This document shows, one piece after another, positions 7,938-15,607 of a DNA stretch of 64,000 nt (positions are counted from its first letter, which is position 1; each line of letters begins with the position of its first letter). The position numbers and the translations under genes are program-made. The notes under the pieces are model-generated. The model made no database searches and was not told the origin of the DNA. It saw only the letters and a program-made list of their open reading frames with translations. This DNA is from Caulobacterales bacterium (GTDB lineage: Bacteria > Pseudomonadota > Alphaproteobacteria > Caulobacterales > Caulobacteraceae). The stretch lies in contig CANJID010000006.1 in NCBI GenBank assembly GCA_947474395.1, forward strand, positions 1 through 64,000, given 5' to 3'.

Positions 7938-8519
7938 CTACCGCGCGGGGGCCGGCACCGCGGGCGCCGGGGCCGGCTTCGGCAGGGTGCCGCCTTCGGC
8001 CAGGATTTTCATGTTCCTCAGGCCTTCCATGAACCGCGTCCGGCGGTTGTTCTTGTCGGCCGCGCGGGCGGCGTCGTCGGCCAGGTTCGAATTGTCGAAG
8101 AACAGGGAATAGATCAGCTTCGTCGTGGTCGCCGAGGTCGGCTTGGCCTCGATGGTCCCGTGGTAGAGCTGGTAGAATCCGCTCGCCCGCACCGGCTGGG
8201 TGTAGGTGTGCGACAGGTCGGTCTTGGCCACCAGAATCTCGATGATCGAGCCGTTCAGCGTCCGCACGGCGCCGAGCTCCCCGTCCTTGCCCGAGCTCAT
8301 GACGCAGCTCAGGCCCTGGAACCACTCGCCGATGTCGCAGAACTTGCCGATCCGCGCCCACACCTGGGCGGCCGGACGGTTCACGTCGATCTCCATCACC
8401 ACCGAGTCGTAGTGCGGGTTCGGCACCGCCAGCGGCGCGGGGGCCGGAGCGCCGGCTGAGGCGGCGGTGGCCGCAAGCAAGGTCAGGCCGCTGACGGCGG
8501 CGGCGAGAAGAGCCTTCAT
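7938..8519 (-). CDS. Secreted SRPBCC (START-like) family protein
   Basis: A 193-residue protein with a clear signal peptide (MKALLAAAVSGLTLLAATAASA, cleavage about residue 22). The mature part reads like a helix-grip SRPBCC/polyketide-cyclase-type fold: an opening strand (VVMEIDVNRPAAQVWARIG), GEWFQGLSC, and later strands ending in a helix. Such folds bind hydrophobic ligands; the ligand is unknown. The tail is rich in Ala and Pro (PAPAPAVPAPAR). It stands alone between two palindromic repeat pairs, with mfd downstream on the same strand. The ATG at 8519 begins the signal peptide. Confidence 0.75.
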   Translation of the reverse strand: MKALLAAAVSGLTLLAATAASAGAPAPAPLAVPNPHYDSVVMEIDVNRPAAQVWARIGKFCDIGEWFQGLSCVMSSGKDGELGAVRTLNGSIIEILVAKTDLSHTYTQPVRASGFYQLYHGTIEAKPTSATTTKLIYSLFFDNSNLADDAARAADKNNRRTRFMEGLRNMKILAEGGTLPKPAPAPAVPAPAR

Positions 8520-8585
8520 TGTCGTTTCCCCCGAGACGGCCTCGCGCCGCCGGTTATCCCCACGGAGCGGAGTATGGCGGCTCTG

Positions 8586-8691
8586 CCCCCCCTGGGGGAA
8601 GTGTCCGCCCGAACGGGCGGACGAAGGGGGCTGAAGGGCGTCGCGTTAGCCCCCTTCCCCCGCTTCGCGGGTACTTCCCCCAGAGGGGGAA
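8586..8691. repeat. Second inverted pair of the palindromic element
   Basis: Arms 8586-8632 and 8648-8691 face each other and carry the same CCCCCTCTGGGGGAAGT core as the pair at 7754-7930. The variable hairpins are GTCCGCCCGAACGGGCGGAC on the left and CCGCTTCGCGG on the right, and both arms end in GGGGGCT toward the centre. It sits between mfd and the SRPBCC gene, just after the mfd stop codon, so it could end or stabilise the mfd transcript. Confidence 0.75.
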
Positions 8692-8695
8692 GAGC

Positions 8696-11600
8696 CTAGG
8701 CCGCCGTGGCCAGCGCCACCCGCGCCAGGTCGGTGAGGATGCGTTCGGCGGCGTTGAGGCGCTCGGCCGGGGTTTCCCACTCGCCCTTCACCACCATCTT
8801 GTGGTCGGGGCGCAGCCGCCACAGGGCGCCGGCCTTCTGCACCTGGCTGATCAGGCCGACGGGGTTGGGGAACTGGTCCTCGCGGAAGGTGACCACGGCG
8901 CCCTTGGGCCCCACGTCGATCTTGGAGACATTGGCCTGGCGGCAGAGGCCCTTGATCGCAACCACCTTCAGCAGTTGGCCGGCCTCGGCCGGCAGGGGCC
9001 CGAAGCGGTCGATCAGCTCGGCGGCCAGGGCCTCGCGGTCCTCCGGCCGTTCGGCTTCCGACAGGCGCCGGTAGAGCGACAGGCGCACATTGAGGTCGGG
9101 GACATATTCGTCCGGGATGAGCACCGCCGCCCCGGCGTTGATCTGGGGCGACCAGCCGCGGCCGTCGACCACCGCCTCCGCCCCGCCGGCGCGAAGCTCG
9201 GCCACCGCGTCCTCCAGCATCTGCTGGTAGAGCTCGACCCCGATCTCACGGATGTGGCCCGACTGCTCCTCGCCCAGCAGATTGCCCCCGCCCCGGATGT
9301 CGAGGTCGTGGCTGGCGAGCTGGAAGCCCGCGCCCAGGCTGTCCAGCGACTGCAGCACCTTCAGCCGCTTCTCGGCGGTGGCGGTGATGACCTTGTCAAC
9401 CGGGGTGGTCAGGTAGGCGTAGGCCCGCGCCTTGGCCCGGCCGACCCGCCCGCGCAACTGGTAGAGCTGGCTGAGGCCGAACATGTCCGCCCGGTGCACG
9501 ATCAGGGTGTTGGCGGCGGGGATGTCGAGGCCGGACTCGACGATGGTGGTCGAGAGCAGCACGTCGTACTGGCCGTCGTAGAAGGCGCTCATCACCTCCT
9601 CCAGCCCCGTCGGCGACATCTGGCCGTGGCCGACCACGAACTTGATCTCGGGGACCTGCTCGCGCAGGAACCGCTCCAGCTCCGGCAGGTCGGCGACGCG
9701 CGGGGTGACGAAATAGGCCTGGCCGCCGCGGTACTTTTCCCGCAGCAACGCCTCGCGGATCACCACCGGGTCCTGCGGGGTGACATAGGTGCGCACCGCC
9801 AGGCGATCGACCGGCGGGGTGGCGATGATCGACATCTCCCGGATGCCCGAGAGCGCCAGCTGCAGGGTGCGCGGGATCGGCGTCGCCGTCAGGGTCAGCA
9901 TGTGCACGTCGGTGCGCAGCGCCTTCAGCTTCTCCTTATGCTTGACCCCGAAGTGCTGCTCCTCGTCGACGATGACGAGGCCCAGGTCCCTGAACTTCAC
10001 GTGCTCGGACAGGATCGCGTGGGTGCCGACGATGATGTCCACCTCGCCCGTCGCCAGGGCAGCGCGGGTCTCGGCGGCGTCCTTGGCGGGGATCAGGCGG
10101 GACAGGGCGCGAAGCTTCACCGGCCAGCCGGCGAAGCGCTCGGTGAAGGTGCGGATGTGCTGGCGGGCCAGGAGCGTGGTCGGGCAGACCACCGCCACCT
10201 GCTTGCCGGTCATGGCCATGACGAAGGCGGCCCGCAGGGCGACCTCGGTCTTGCCGAAGCCCACGTCGCCGCAGATCAGCCGGTCCATGGGCCGCCCCGC
10301 CCCGAGATCCCCCAGCACGTCGGCGATGGCGTTGAGCTGGTCCTCGGTCTCCTCGTAGGGGAAGCGGGCGCAGAACTCGTCGAACAGGCCGTGCGGAGGA
10401 TCGACCGCGTCGGTGGACTTCAGCTGGCGGGCGGCGGCGATCTTGATCAGCCCCTCGGCCATTTCGCGCAGGCGTTCCTTGGCCTTGGCTTTCCGCGCCT
10501 GCCAGGCCGCGCCGCCCAGGCGGTCCAGCATCACCCCTTCGGAATCCGAGCCGTACCGGGTCAGGAGGTCGATGTTCTCCACCGGCAGGTAGAGCCGCGC
10601 CTCCCCGCCGTACTGGATGTCCAGGCAGTCGTGCGGCGCCCCCTGCACCTCCAGGGTCTTCAGCCCCTCGTAGCGGCCGATGCCGTGGTCGATGTGCACG
10701 ACGAGGTCCCCCGGCGTCAGCGAGGTCGCCTCGGCCAGGAAGTTGGCGGCGCGGCGGCGGCGGCGCGGCCGGGCCAGCCGGTCGCCCAGCATGTCGGTCT
10801 CGGAGATGACGGCGAGGTCGGCGGTCTCGAACCCGTGGTCGACGGGCAGCACCACCCGCTGCAGCGGCTTGCCCTTGGCGCCCGCCACCCCGAACCCAAG
10901 CACGTCCTGCCAGTCCTTGGCGAAGCGGATCGGCGTCAGGCCGTGGTCGCCCAGCATCATGGAGAGCCGCTCGGACGAGCCGTCGGACCAGGAGGCGAAC
11001 AGCACGCGTTTGCCCGCTTTAGAGAGAGCCCTGGCATGATCCGCCACCGCCTCGAACAGGTTGACGCTGTCCTGCGCCCGCTCGGCCGAGAAATTGCGCC
11101 CCGCCCGTGCGCCCAGGTCCACCACCCCGGGGCCTTCCGGCCGCTGGAACGGGGTGAAGCGGCGCACCGGGAATTCGTCCAGGTAGAGGTCCCACTCGTC
11201 CTTCGACAGATAGAGGGCCTCCGGCGCCAGGGCGCGATAGCCGGTCCCGCCCCGCACCTTGTGGGCTTCCTGGCGGGCGTCGTAGGCGTCGGCGATCATG
11301 GCCAGCCGCTCGTCGCGCGCCTCCTCGGCCAGGGCGTCCAGGGCGATCAGGGCCCCGTCGCCGACATAGTCGAACAGGGTCTCCATCCGCGGATAGAACA
11401 GGGGCAGCCAGTGCTCCATGCCGGCGCGCCGCCCACCCTCGCTGACCGTGGCGTAGAGGGGATCGTCGCCCGCCGCCCCGAAGGCGGTGACGTAGCCGGT
11501 GCGGAAACGGGAGATCGACTCCTTGTCCAGCAGGGCCTCCGAAACCGGCAGCAGGTCGATGGCCGAAAGCTGGCGGGTGGAGCGCTGGGTCTCCGGGTCG

Positions 11601-12205
11601 AAGGCGCGGATCGATTCCAGGGTGTCGCCGAACAGGTCCAGCCGCACCGGCTCCTCGGCCCCCGGCGGGAAGACGTCGATCACCCCGCCCCGCACGGCGA
11701 ACTCTCCGCGCTCGGAGACGGTGGAGGCGCGGCTGTAGCCGTTGACCGCGAAATAGCGCTCCAGCTCCGGCATATCGACGTCGCGGCCGGTGCGGGCGAG
11801 GTAGCTGGCCGCGGCGATGACGGCGCGCGGCGGGATGCGCTGCACCAGGGCGTGGGCGGTGACCACCACGACGAGCGGCGCCTTGTCCGCAGCCTTGCGG
11901 TGGGCCAGCGCCGAGAAGGCCGCCATCCGCGTCGCCGCCACGCTCGGCGAGGGCCCGATCCGGTCGTAAGGCAGGCAGTCCCACGAGGGGATCGGCAGCA
12001 CCGCCAGGTCCGGCGCGAAGAAAGCCAAGGCGTCCACGAACATGCCGGCGCGGGCCGTGTCGCGGGCCACGAAGACGCTCACGCCCCCATGCGCGCGCGC
12101 CATGTCGGCCATGACCAGCGCATCGAAGCCCTCCGGCGCGCCGGCCAGCTCCAGGGCCCCCTTGGCCTTTGCGATTCCGGTCACGTCCAAGGCCCGCTCC
12201 AACAC
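8696..12205 (-). CDS. mfd: Mfd, transcription-repair coupling factor
   Basis: Mfd removes RNA polymerase stalled at DNA damage and recruits UvrA. The 1169 residues match the family length. The N-terminal UvrB-like part (about 1-380) includes PIPSWDCLPYDRIGPSP. An RNA-polymerase-interacting region follows (GDLVVHIDHGIGRYEG, about 505-520), then a helicase motor with GDVGFGKTE (about 640), DEEQHFG (about 745), TATPIPRTL and the translocation motif region GLSQLYQLRGRVGR, then the C-terminal UvrA-masking domain. The start is a GTG at 12205 with a weak ribosome site. sdhE lies upstream on the same strand. Confidence 0.97.
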   Translation of the reverse strand: MLERALDVTGIAKAKGALELAGAPEGFDALVMADMARAHGGVSVFVARDTARAGMFVDALAFFAPDLAVLPIPSWDCLPYDRIGPSPSVAATRMAAFSALAHRKAADKAPLVVVVTAHALVQRIPPRAVIAAASYLARTGRDVDMPELERYFAVNGYSRASTVSERGEFAVRGGVIDVFPPGAEEPVRLDLFGDTLESIRAFDPETQRSTRQLSAIDLLPVSEALLDKESISRFRTGYVTAFGAAGDDPLYATVSEGGRRAGMEHWLPLFYPRMETLFDYVGDGALIALDALAEEARDERLAMIADAYDARQEAHKVRGGTGYRALAPEALYLSKDEWDLYLDEFPVRRFTPFQRPEGPGVVDLGARAGRNFSAERAQDSVNLFEAVADHARALSKAGKRVLFASWSDGSSERLSMMLGDHGLTPIRFAKDWQDVLGFGVAGAKGKPLQRVVLPVDHGFETADLAVISETDMLGDRLARPRRRRRAANFLAEATSLTPGDLVVHIDHGIGRYEGLKTLEVQGAPHDCLDIQYGGEARLYLPVENIDLLTRYGSDSEGVMLDRLGGAAWQARKAKAKERLREMAEGLIKIAAARQLKSTDAVDPPHGLFDEFCARFPYEETEDQLNAIADVLGDLGAGRPMDRLICGDVGFGKTEVALRAAFVMAMTGKQVAVVCPTTLLARQHIRTFTERFAGWPVKLRALSRLIPAKDAAETRAALATGEVDIIVGTHAILSEHVKFRDLGLVIVDEEQHFGVKHKEKLKALRTDVHMLTLTATPIPRTLQLALSGIREMSIIATPPVDRLAVRTYVTPQDPVVIREALLREKYRGGQAYFVTPRVADLPELERFLREQVPEIKFVVGHGQMSPTGLEEVMSAFYDGQYDVLLSTTIVESGLDIPAANTLIVHRADMFGLSQLYQLRGRVGRAKARAYAYLTTPVDKVITATAEKRLKVLQSLDSLGAGFQLASHDLDIRGGGNLLGEEQSGHIREIGVELYQQMLEDAVAELRAGGAEAVVDGRGWSPQINAGAAVLIPDEYVPDLNVRLSLYRRLSEAERPEDREALAAELIDRFGPLPAEAGQLLKVVAIKGLCRQANVSKIDVGPKGAVVTFREDQFPNPVGLISQVQKAGALWRLRPDHKMVVKGEWETPAERLNAAERILTDLARVALATAA

Positions 12206-12242
12206 AACTGTGCCGGCGCACGAAACGCCGGGCTGCTTCCCT

Positions 12243-12300
12243 TAGTCCCTCCCCCTCTCGGGGAGGTGGATCGGCGCGCAGCGCCGAGACGGTGGGGGCT
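12243..12300. repeat. Single palindromic intergenic element
   Basis: The sequence has a CTCCCCCTCTCGGGGAGG palindrome followed by a second hairpin (TCGGCGCGCAGCGCCGA) and a GGTGGGGGCT end. Its layout (short GC palindrome, variable hairpin, G-rich GGGGCT end) matches the elements at 7754-7930 and 8586-8691, though the core differs. It lies between mfd and sdhE. Confidence 0.6.
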
Positions 12301-12322
12301 AAACGCCGCCCCCTTTTTTCTT

Positions 12323-12601
12323 CTACCCGCCCAAATCCTCCCGCGCCCCACGCGCCTCGAACCGGAAGGCCTTGATCCGCGCCATCATCGGCGTCTCGAA
12401 GGCCTCCGGGGTGTCCACGCGCCCGATGATCCAGGCGTAGAGGTCCTGGTCCGCCTGGTCGAGCAGCCGCTCCAGCTCGTCCAGTTCCGCCGCGCTCATC
12501 CCCGCCGAGAAGGTGTCGACAAACGGCCCCAGGATCAGGTCCGCCTCCCGAAACCCCCGCCGCCACGCACGGAACTTCAGTCTCTTGAGGCGAGGGTCCA
12601 T
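12323..12601 (-). CDS. sdhE: SdhE, succinate dehydrogenase flavinylation factor
   Basis: A 92-residue protein of the SdhE/YgfY/Sdh5 family, which helps attach FAD covalently to the flavoprotein subunit of succinate dehydrogenase. The family motif RGxxEADLILG is seen as RRGFREADLILGPF near residue 15, followed by the typical helices (ELDELERLLDQADQDLYAWI). In many alphaproteobacteria sdhE sits with mfd and recG. Here it is directly upstream of mfd, but recG is 5.7 kb away. No succinate dehydrogenase genes are in the window. Confidence 0.92.
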   Translation of the reverse strand: MDPRLKRLKFRAWRRGFREADLILGPFVDTFSAGMSAAELDELERLLDQADQDLYAWIIGRVDTPEAFETPMMARIKAFRFEARGAREDLGG

Positions 12602-12805
12602 GGGCGCATCCGCGAGGGGGATTGGCCATATAGAGGGCGCAGGCCGTGGCCGCCAGCGGGAGCGGGCGGGATTTCGCGCAGGCAGGCAAGGAGGCAGGCC
12701 GCCCCGAAGGCGGCGGACGACCCTTTCTTAAGGGTGGTGCGCGATAATGGCGTCACTGCAGGCCCGCACTGTCGGCTGGGCGGCGTTCTGCTTGACGGTG
12801 TCGGG

Positions 12806-15607
12806 ATGGATGCGGGCGACCTGATTCACGCGCAATTCTCGGCCCTGGCCCTCAAGCACCCTGAGGCCCTGGCCGTCGCAAGCGTCGATGGCCCGATCAC
12901 CTACGGCCGGTTGGACGCCCTCTCGCGACAGCTCGCCGCGCGCATCGTCTCAAGCGATCGGCGGGGAGGACCTGTGGTCGGCATCCTGGCCGAGCGCGGG
13001 GCCCGCACGGTCGTCGCCGCACTCGCTTGCGCCCGGGCCGGCAGACCCTTCGTGATCCTCGACCTCTCCTACCCCCAGGCCCGCCTCGAGGCGCTGGTCG
13101 AGGTCTGCGGGCCGGGCCTTCTGCTCGCGGCGGGGGCGCAAGCGCCCAAGGGTGCTTTGGCCTTCGACCTGCCCATGCTTGGCGTGGTTCTGGACCCTTC
13201 GCCCCACGACGCGCCGGCCGCCGCGCATCCGGGCGGAGAAGCCTCGCCGGACGGGCCCGCCTATCTCCTGTTCACCTCAGGGAGCACGGGCTCGCCCAAG
13301 TGCGTCGCCTGCTCACATCGGCCGCTGGTCAACTTCATCGACTGGCAGGTCAGGACCTTCGGTCTCACCGCGGACGACCGCTTCACCATGCTGTCGGGGC
13401 TGTCGCATGACCCGATCCTGCGGGACATCTTCACCCCGCTGAGCATCGGCGCCTCGATCCATATCCCCCCGCAAGACGTCCTCACCGCCCCCGGCGGCCT
13501 GTACGACTGGTTCGTGGCGGCGAGACCGACGGTCGCGCATATGACGCCGCCGCTCGGCCATCTGCTGACCTCGGTGCGACGGGGGACCGGGCGGCTGGAC
13601 GACCTGCGCCACGTCTTCTGGGGCGGCGATGTACTGCGATACGCCCTGGTGGACGCCCTGACCGACCTGGCCCCCCGCTGCGAGAGCGTGAACTTCTACG
13701 GGGCCACCGAGACGCCGCAGGCGGCGAGCTTCTTTCGCGCCTCGGCGGAGACGGGCGGCGACCGGGCGCCGATCGGCGTCGGCATCGACGGCTTCCGGCT
13801 CGAGATCCGCGACGAGGACGGCGCCACGATTGCCGACGGCCGGCCCGGCGAGATCGTCGTCCGCTCCCGGTTCCTGACCATGGGCTACGTCACCGGGGGC
13901 CGGCTGCCCCCGGCTCGCCCGTGCGACGAGGAACAGACCTACGCCACCGGCGACATGGGCCATCGCCGCGCCGACGGCCAGATCGTCATCCAGGGGCGGC
14001 GGGACGATCAGGTCAAAATTCGCGGCTACCGCGTTGAATTGGGAGAGATCACAGCCTGCGCGCTGAAGGCCGCGGACGTGGGCCAGGCGATCACCCTCGA
14101 TATCGGTGCGCCGGACCAGGTCCGGCTCTGCTGCTTCGTCCAGCCTGCAAACGACGGCGAACTGGACCCCCCGGCCGTGCGAGAGCACATCGCGGCGAAC
14201 CTGCCCGCCTACATGGTGCCGGACTCCGTCGTGGCGGTGGGCGCGTTCCCGCTGCTGCCCAACGGCAAGATCGACAGGCAGGCCCTGATCCGTAGCGAGA
14301 CCGAGCGGGCGAACGCGGCGGACCGGCCGACCGGGTCGCTTACCCCGACCCAGGCGGCCCTGGTGGACCAGTGGCGAAAGTTCCTCCGCCGCGACCGCAT
14401 CGACGTGGAAGAAAGCTTCGCCTCACTGGGCGGCGACAGTCTCTCCTATGTGAACGCCTACCTGTCGCTGGAGGAGGTCCTGGGCCGTGTCCCGGACCGC
14501 TGGACCACCATGAGCATCGCCGAACTGGCGGCGACGAAGAGCGCCCGCGCCGGGCGCGGCCTGTTCGTTGGTGTCGAGAGCGCCATGTTGATGCGCGCCG
14601 TGGCGATCGCCGCGGTGGTAGGCAGCCACTTCCAACTCTTCGTCACCGGCGGCGCGGCCACGAGCGCCCTGCTTTGGGTTTCGGGCTATCTCTTCGGCGG
14701 CCTGCAACTCCATGAGGCGGATCACCAGTCGAGCGCGAAGCCCGTCGGCCGGCTGCTGAGAAGCGTGCTGATACCGGTCCTGGCGATCGAGCTTCCGCAG
14801 GCGGCGGTCAAGTTCGCCATGCACTACCACGCCAAGTGGTCCAGCGTTTTCCTTTACGTCGACCTGCTCGACTTCACCGGAATGGACACCGACGGGCCGA
14901 ACGCCTACGGCGGCGCCGAATACCTGATGTGGTACATCGACTGCGTCTTCCACATCATGCTCCTCTACGCGGCTCTGATCCTCGTGTTTACGCATGTGGT
15001 GAAGCTTCGACGGCCGGCCGTCGCGGCCGCATGCGCCGCGGTGGCGCTCGGTCTGTTTGGCCGGTTCGTGGCCCCGGTCCTCTTCCTTCCAGACTTCTGG
15101 AAGGCCCAGGTCGATCCGATGTCCTACTTCAACCATGCGCCGACCACGCACCTGGCCACCTTCGCCCTCGCCGCCCTCGCCGGATTCCTGAAGGGCCGCT
15201 GGCGGATCGCCACCATGGCCGCGGTGCTGGCCTATGCGATGCTGAGCGCGCCGAGCTATGGCGCGGGCGACGCCATCGCCATCGCCTTGGTCGCCGCCTT
15301 CCTGATTTTCGTCCCGAAGCTCGGCGTCCCGCGCGTCCTGTCGACGCCGATCTACCTGGTCGCCGGCGCGTCCCTCTTCATCTACCTGCTCCACTTCAAG
15401 TTCCTGGTGGTTTTCAATCACCTGCACCTCCCTGCCATCGCGGCCTGGCCGGGAGCGCTGGTGGGCGGCGTGGTCGTCTGGAGCCTGTGGAACTGGGGGG
15501 CGCAAAGGGCCGCGGCGATCTGGACGGCACGGCCGCGCCATAGGCTGGACCTCTGGCGCGACGGCACGACGCGGCGGAGCAGCCTGGCCGCCCTCCTGCG
15601 CGGCTGA
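12806..15607 (+). CDS. Adenylation-carrier-acyltransferase-3 fusion (NRPS-like, Lys2-type A domain)
   Basis: A 933-residue three-part protein. Residues about 1-495 form an amino-acid adenylation domain with A3 TSGSTGSPK (about 156), A4 HDPILRDIF (201-209), A5 NFYGATE, A7 YATGD, A8 GRRDDQVKIRGYRVELGEI and A10 LPNGKIDR. The A4-A5 stretch (MLSGLSHDPILRDIFTPL, HMTPPLGHLLT) strongly resembles the 2-aminoadipate reductase Lys2. Residues about 510-580 are a carrier domain with LGGDSL and the phosphopantetheine serine S545. Residues about 595-925 have about ten membrane segments and features of acyltransferase-3: an early helix with H608, VSGYL, then IYLLH. There is no condensation, thioesterase or reductase domain. 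The inference is that an activated amino or acyl group is passed from the carrier to an envelope acceptor. No phosphopantetheinyl transferase is nearby. The ATG at 12806 has a weak ribosome site; a GTG at 12734 would add 24 residues. Confidence 0.85.
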   Translation: MDAGDLIHAQFSALALKHPEALAVASVDGPITYGRLDALSRQLAARIVSSDRRGGPVVGILAERGARTVVAALACARAGRPFVILDLSYPQARLEALVEVCGPGLLLAAGAQAPKGALAFDLPMLGVVLDPSPHDAPAAAHPGGEASPDGPAYLLFTSGSTGSPKCVACSHRPLVNFIDWQVRTFGLTADDRFTMLSGLSHDPILRDIFTPLSIGASIHIPPQDVLTAPGGLYDWFVAARPTVAHMTPPLGHLLTSVRRGTGRLDDLRHVFWGGDVLRYALVDALTDLAPRCESVNFYGATETPQAASFFRASAETGGDRAPIGVGIDGFRLEIRDEDGATIADGRPGEIVVRSRFLTMGYVTGGRLPPARPCDEEQTYATGDMGHRRADGQIVIQGRRDDQVKIRGYRVELGEITACALKAADVGQAITLDIGAPDQVRLCCFVQPANDGELDPPAVREHIAANLPAYMVPDSVVAVGAFPLLPNGKIDRQALIRSETERANAADRPTGSLTPTQAALVDQWRKFLRRDRIDVEESFASLGGDSLSYVNAYLSLEEVLGRVPDRWTTMSIAELAATKSARAGRGLFVGVESAMLMRAVAIAAVVGSHFQLFVTGGAATSALLWVSGYLFGGLQLHEADHQSSAKPVGRLLRSVLIPVLAIELPQAAVKFAMHYHAKWSSVFLYVDLLDFTGMDTDGPNAYGGAEYLMWYIDCVFHIMLLYAALILVFTHVVKLRRPAVAAACAAVALGLFGRFVAPVLFLPDFWKAQVDPMSYFNHAPTTHLATFALAALAGFLKGRWRIATMAAVLAYAMLSAPSYGAGDAIAIALVAAFLIFVPKLGVPRVLSTPIYLVAGASLFIYLLHFKFLVVFNHLHLPAIAAWPGALVGGVVVWSLWNWGAQRAAAIWTARPRHRLDLWRDGTTRRSSLAALLRG

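Follow-up and report, generated by a model that had tools for sequence, protein, structure and literature searches.

The gene at positions 12806 to 15607 of the forward strand of the window (the whole 64,000-nucleotide stretch of Caulobacterales DNA that was analysed) encodes a 933-residue protein in which an NRPS-type adenylation domain is followed by a carrier domain, with its serine at residue 545, and then by a polytopic C-terminus, the final ~345 residues being membrane helices. The reading frame begins with ATG at 12806, ends with a stop codon at 15605-15607 and has no internal stop. GC content by codon position (0.70/0.50/0.88) is of the coding type, with the third position slightly below the 0.93-0.95 of the neighbouring genes. 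The gene lies between mfd-sdhE and recG, with sdhE and mfd upstream and ORFs for VOC and GAF-domain proteins downstream. The neighbourhood examined contains no adjacent glycan genes and no DltD gene, and the gene's own context thus says little. A 2362-aa, TTG-started ORF at 8519-15607 that encloses the gene was rejected as an artefact reading antisense to mfd; this high-GC frame could mislead gene callers on the start. The features are as follows, all on the forward strand.

12806 to 15607 (end includes the stop codon), forward: A-T-AT3 gene, 933 amino acids (ORF, translation, homologues of the same layout)
12848 to 14278, forward: adenylation domain, residues 15-491 (Pfam AMP-binding, TIGR01733, TIGR03443, alignment to LgrA)
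14357 to 14506, forward: carrier (T/PCP) domain, residues 518-567 (PP-binding, PCP structure match, invariance in relatives)
14438 to 14440, forward: codon of carrier Ser545 (position in the translation)
14564 to 15529, forward: predicted AT3/TmAT membrane domain, residues 587-908, about ten transmembrane helices (PF01757 in relatives, HGSNAT fold, motifs)
14594 to 14629, forward: R-X10-H motif (R597 to H608) in transmembrane helix 1 (alignment; motif per PMC9833829)
14750 to 14761, forward: R649-LL-R652, a displaced remnant of RXXR (canonical R..R-[ILV]-x-P context not kept)

An earlier note on this DNA had placed adenylation, carrier and membrane domains in a single chain, which was borne out by Pfam, by motifs and by homologues of the same layout. 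Judged from these sequences, chance is excluded as the source of the three-domain layout, given that homologues with 57%, 39% and 35% identity, together with a fourth that is split over two contigs, keep both the layout and the key residues.

Adenylation and carrier domains

Pfam identified AMP-binding at residues 15-361 (198 bits) and AMP-binding_C at residues 433-488. Among NCBIfam models, the adenylation part scored 309 bits with the domain model TIGR01733, followed by TIGR03443 (aminoadipate reductase) as the highest full-length model at 261 bits; TIGR01734, the model for DltA, reached 187 bits, far below its cut-off of 560. The domain contains TSGSTG at residues 157-162. In our alignment, Asp202 corresponds to GrsA Asp235, which binds the alpha-amino group in NRPS adenylation domains, and Lys488 corresponds to GrsA Lys517, the catalytic lysine. 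By its sequence, the domain is of the amino-acid kind, and the acid loaded in the subclade of the window protein is probably an amino acid, given that Asp202 and Lys488, with their presumed functions, are both kept. The specificity pocket in the alignment reads DPRLFGFQAK, which may resemble a Lys2/aminoadipate signature. Pocket residues alone name no substrate; a text search for an aminoadipate-type signature gave no paper, and naming the substrate from the pocket code was dropped, with the aminoadipate link taken no further than the TIGR03443 score.

The phosphopantetheine site, Ser545, sits in the sequence GGDSLSYV (542-549) and is invariant among the relatives. The PP-binding profile (518-565) scored 20.5 bits against a cut-off of 20.8 in the full protein and 21.8 bits, above the cut-off, when the C-terminal part was scanned alone. 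The modelled carrier matches PCP structures such as 4pxh_D (Z 9.7, rmsd 1.9 over 71 residues). The protein therefore has the features of an NRPS module, namely equivalents of Asp235 and Lys517 (Asp202 and Lys488) and then a carrier with Ser545, and the full amino-acid-type adenylation domain and carrier serine of the earlier note were confirmed via Pfam, TIGR01733, these two residues and the GGDSLSYV motif. Pfam found no condensation, thioesterase or reductase domain in the protein. The genome, which is 99.65% complete, has a single match to the PPTase family PF01648 (G000:C28:36961-37248), an AcpS-sized frame of 157 amino acids, and the PF01648 search found no Sfp-type PPTase in it; AcpS, or a PPTase that escaped recognition, must thus modify the carrier, which is a weak point of the self-loading reading given below.

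The membrane domain

Scanned with Pfam, residues 580-933 of the window protein match neither PF01757 nor any other model, and single profile searches with the protein's C-terminus gave no matches. The nearest homologue, from a Caulobacter sp. MAG (L031, 57% identity), scores 30.4 bits with PF01757 against a cut-off of 31. Across the family, PF01757 is matched by 22 of the 27 members and the MBOAT profile by none, which, at the level of the family, favors AT3 in the comparison of Acyl_transf_3 and MBOAT profiles that the earlier note had proposed. The motifs R-X10-H, RXXR and SXXXY have been defined for AT3 proteins, R-X10-H and RXXR being the key ones (PMC9833829). All family members have the histidine of R-X10-H, and the first residue of the motif is R or K. 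Further AT3 landmarks of the window protein are VSGYL (625-629) after helix 1, W709, S856-LFI-Y860 (the SXXXY of helix 9) and IYLLH (859-863).

An AlphaFold2 model of residues 508-933 had a pLDDT of 86 and a pTM of 0.86; the domain arrangement in the full-length model is unreliable (pTM 0.56). The best structural match of the partial model was human HGSNAT (Z 12.3-13.4, ~270 (271) residues, rmsd ~5), followed by GWT1 (Z 7.4), both of which are united with AT3 in the TmAT superfamily (PMC12423673). Foldseek alone ranks HGSNAT weakly (rank 3, E 0.18, probability 0.96), so the fold assignment rests jointly on VIA-align and the motifs; the structure-model alignments were built without the plasmid-record sequences. 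Taking relatives, motifs and predicted fold together, rather than a direct Pfam match, we conclude that the membrane part is a divergent AT3 (AT3/TmAT) domain and not an MBOAT. The ~330 acyltransferase-3 membrane residues of the earlier note stand in this sense, with H608, VSGYL, IYLLH, the relatives and the fold in agreement and a direct Acyl_transf_3 match missing. Homology to MBOAT/DltB was ruled out by profile, motif and fold. A transporter, which the earlier note had named as one of the findings that would speak against its reading, was rejected as well: the Foldseek rows for transporters are weak (TM-scores ~0.15, large rmsd), HGSNAT stands above them after realignment, and the fold is HGSNAT-like instead.

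We considered that the C-terminal domain could serve only to anchor the protein in the membrane, or act as an exporter, and lack transferase activity, as its divergent sequence and the missing Pfam match in the window protein might suggest. This is highly improbable against the fold match to TmAT enzymes and the (near-)invariance of H608, W709 and Y860 across 27 proteins, some of which are ~15% identical in the membrane part.

Relatives, split loci and the RXXR motif

The order A-T-AT3 has a sparse distribution that takes in other Caulobacterales, Rhizobiaceae, Rhodobacterales and Rhodococcus; the search for the same order elsewhere that the earlier note had called for thus succeeded in several lineages, and the layout is not unique to this genome. 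In profile searches, matches spanning carrier and AT3 came from 7 of 299 genomes in the order, a count that includes the genome of the window, and from 7/398 genomes sampled across the phylum, where that genome is not counted. In other A-T proteins the match was confined to the carrier, and some of these bear other AT3 domains. A profile scan of the genome contigs gave one relative only. Among related genomes of the same family, full-length homologues are found in G032, G059 (two copies of different types), G052 (split over two contigs) and G018, and the domain order is kept in homologues down to ~22% identity. Copies on plasmids were found in Leisingera, Rhizobium, Sinorhizobium, Shinella, Roseateles and Rhodococcus, where they are annotated as 'AMP-binding protein' and once as 'acyltransferase family protein'.

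The family contains two adenylation types. The subclade of the window protein (with L031, L002, L003, L004 and Pseudorhodobacter L093), a single well-supported clade in the AT3 tree, has the Asp and DxRxFGFQAK; the other members lack the Asp and read S/C-Y/F-S-x-TAMxRK, a pattern like that of acyl- or aryl-acid ligases. By these motifs, most relatives carry an acyl-acid-type adenylation domain, and only in the subclade of the window protein is an amino acid a plausible substrate. The loading of an amino or related acid, as the earlier note had it, accordingly keeps the amino acid for this subclade and loses it for most relatives.

In two loci the parts are encoded separately. In L072 (G571), an A-T ORF (1-1701) overlaps an AT3 ORF (~1697 to 2710); in L063 (G096), an A-T ORF is convergent with an AT3 ORF. 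Both loci adjoin a gene for a GT4 glycosyltransferase, which in L072 follows the AT3 ORF. In the AT3 tree, the AT3 of L072 branches off first within the main fused clade, and the tree requires at least three separate changes to the carrier-fused state. Orthologues split into unrelated genes, which would have spoken against the earlier note, were not what we found, as both split cases are adjacent A-T and AT3 genes. Given that the two parts are fused in some genomes and neighbours in others, they are expected to work together.

Several related arrangements were seen alongside the family. An A-T protein in G007 (L011:1213-4224) has a ~330-aa non-membrane C-terminal domain with no Pfam match, possibly a novel processing domain. 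In L085:5377-8304 and L086:6488-9373, the AT3 domain joined to A-T belongs to a lineage of its own, which is very divergent (Pfam 30 and 19 bits) and forms a long branch away from the AT3 clade of the window protein. A second AT3 gene overlaps the start of the A-T-AT3 ORF in L074:6350-7396 and L075:5800-6813, apparently giving tandem AT3 proteins; the second AT3 in L074 is canonical and has RXXR. A gene for a DUF418 membrane protein (L047:9245-10459) follows the second A-T-AT3 gene of G059.

In AT3 proteins, RXXR lies at the cytoplasmic face of helix 3, its conservation is high but not absolute, and it has been linked to the 3'-phosphate of acetyl-CoA (PMC9833829). Canonical RXXR-x-x-P was found in 0/29 carrier-fused AT3 domains versus 43/50 other AT3 domains, counts that ignore shared ancestry (the Fisher test is uncorrected). 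The controls were unfused or SGNH-fused AT3 domains from related genomes, with most loci picked by Pfam score; lower-scoring controls, fetched to reduce this selection bias, keep RXXR less often (~9/13). R-X10-H is kept in the carrier-fused domains despite the loss of RXXR. Neither split partner has canonical RXXR-x-x-P, the split AT3 of L072 having RFAR, and the L047/L077 lineage has Gln in place of the first Arg, with stand-alone relatives keeping RXXR. The window protein retains R649-LL-R652 near the right place in a displaced register.

A protein-bound phosphopantetheine arm lacks the 3'-phospho-AMP moiety, and a carrier-bound donor therefore predicts loss of the RXXR contact. From the sequences, the loss of RXXR fits replacement of acyl-CoA by a tethered phosphopantetheine thioester as the donor. 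A possible alternative, though a quite unlikely one, is that the AT3 domain uses ordinary acyl-CoA while the A-T part does a separate job, the fusion being one of convenience, as assumed for VanT. AT3-racemase fusions do exist (PMC9558356) and R649-LL-R652 is still there in the window protein, but the canonical motif is missing in 29/29 fused domains, including those of lineages that arose separately, the two genes remain adjacent in split loci, and the linker is short, the T helix ending at ~575 and TM1 starting at ~592 in the model. With a carrier-bound donor as the preferred reading, we see an even chance that these proteins form a separate class of transmembrane acyltransferases, in which AT3 is fed by a fused or neighbouring carrier. 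Such a class would have had at least three separate origins, with canonical RXXR lost in every one. Its loading domains would vary, being of the amino-acid type in the window clade and suited to other acids in the rest, and its members could decorate surface glycans with aminoacyl or unusual acyl groups. If true, this would widen the range of groups placed outside the cell, including amino acids and acids without a CoA pool, and the loss of RXXR gives a direct, testable prediction on donor binding across the AT3 family.

Proposed reaction and acceptor

In many bacteria, O-antigens, capsules and peptidoglycan are modified by AT3 proteins, which are believed to use cytosolic acyl-CoA. We somewhat favor the view that the window protein is a membrane-bound, self-loading acyltransferase, which would load an acid on its own carrier and transfer it across the membrane, most likely to an envelope glycan. 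Its anatomy, motifs, family and co-occurrence are established directly; the substrate class, donor, direction and acceptor are what we infer. The adenylation domain would activate a carboxylic acid with ATP, probably an amino acid in the window subclade, and the fused carrier would then take up the acid on its phosphopantetheine arm at Ser545. In HGSNAT, acyl-CoA enters from the cytosol (PMC12423673). The carrier could dock at the cytosolic mouth of the fused AT3 tunnel and feed its thioester in place of acyl-CoA, after which His608 of R-X10-H would help to move the acyl group through the membrane and onto an extracytoplasmic acceptor. This acceptor, which would receive the group on a hydroxyl or amino function, is most likely a surface polysaccharide or the lipid-linked precursor of one.

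An envelope acceptor is favored given that several relatives sit in polysaccharide loci, in support of the lipopolysaccharide, capsule or lipid that the earlier note had supposed. L045, which is 39% identical to the window protein, belongs to a locus of the Wzx/Wzy type that also has genes for Wzz, Poly_export, Wzy_C, a flippase, an epimerase and glycosyltransferases, and L049 adjoins genes for a nucleotidyltransferase (NTP transferase) and a GHMP kinase. The two split pairs, L063 and L072, with their GT4 genes, count among these loci as well. L073 lies in a dTDP/UDP-sugar locus with an Alg14-like GT, and L077 is beside a flippase and three glycosyltransferases, GT25 and GT2 among them. Glycan loci make up only ~1/3 of the loci examined, and their enrichment versus whole-genome counts is modest: glycosyltransferase-1 within 8 kb in 2/14 genomes versus ~0.75 expected by a rough estimate, which is not clear enrichment, and a nearby flippase in 2/14 genomes versus ~0.2 expected, which is suggestive only. 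The association of the relatives with glycan loci is thus suggestive.

The same self-loading chemistry could instead serve a small-molecule acceptor (a siderophore, a lipoamino acid or another natural product), which we hold to be a tentative but real possibility. The window gene stands alone, the Pseudorhodobacter copy has an overlapping upstream condensation-domain ORF, and iron ABC transporter genes follow the R. fascians and R. gordoniae copies, for which such a role is kept open. AT3 enzymes can also acylate small antibiotics, MdmB and Asm19 being cited in PMC9833829. Against this, L045 and L049, the nearest members with informative neighbours, are in polysaccharide gene sets, and no thioesterase or reductase is fused to the window protein.

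Vibrio cholerae AlmEFG is a Gram-negative system in which adenylation, carrier and transferase functions, as separate proteins, aminoacylate an envelope component, lipid A; the Gram-negative host that the earlier note had pointed out is therefore not what is new here. Its A-T plus transferase logic is shared by the window protein, and with a fatty acid hydroxylase gene near L049 it speaks for a third acceptor of the same chemistry, a membrane lipid or lipid A. This acceptor is unlikely, as AlmG is an LpxL-like glycyltransferase from a family other than the AT3/TmAT of the window protein's C-terminal domain; the one-chain layout is a further difference from AlmEFG. AT3 acceptors in the literature are mostly carbohydrates (PMC9558356).

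With an envelope glycan as the preferred acceptor, the protein can be set beside other known systems. The Dlt system (DltA, DltC, DltB, DltD) has the same logic of adenylation, carrier thioester and outward membrane transfer, and the adenylation domain resembles DltA; here, however, there is one chain, AT3 in place of the MBOAT DltB, no DltD found in the neighbourhood, and different hosts. The comparison with Dlt made by the earlier note holds for the functional logic and not for relationship, DltB being an MBOAT with a fold different from that of AT3 (PMC12423673). With AT3/TmAT proteins (PF01757; OafB, OatA; HGSNAT fold), the window protein has in common R-X10-H, SXXXY, the ten-helix fold and presumed transmembrane acyl transfer, but it adds its own A and T domains, has lost the canonical RXXR context and probably takes its donor from the carrier thioester. 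The AT3 fusion partners named in PMC9558356 and PMC12423673 are SGNH, racemase and NRF. AT3-SGNH, AT3-racemase (VanT) and NRF-AT3 proteins likewise join AT3 to a partner domain; here the partner sits at the N-terminus, on the cytosolic side, and is the probable source of the acyl donor. Single-module NRPS-like enzymes (A-T-TE, A-T-reductase) also have an A-T didomain and one C-terminal processing domain, which here is a polytopic acyltransferase. The earlier note knew of no described system with this exact layout, and we likewise found no description of an A-T-AT3 fusion in the open-licence literature searched, though an account elsewhere is possible. The A-T-AT3 proteins would be candidates for enzymes that attach amino acids to bacterial polysaccharides through ester or amide bonds, and a self-loading AT3 would offer a single-protein system for studying acyl passage across the membrane.

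Other gene neighbours were seen at individual copies. The Rhodococcus A-T-AT3 genes L088 and L091 are carried on plasmids of two different species, each immediately ahead of genes for a ferric-iron-type ABC transporter (binding protein, permease and ATPase). The condensation-domain ORF of Pseudorhodobacter (L093:6143-7366) overlaps the upstream end of the A-T-AT3 gene and could reflect a frameshifted C-A-T-AT3 protein. The plasmid copies of Shinella (L092) and Roseateles (L090) lie downstream of 5-oxoprolinase (Pxp) genes, with a MerR regulator adjoining in both.
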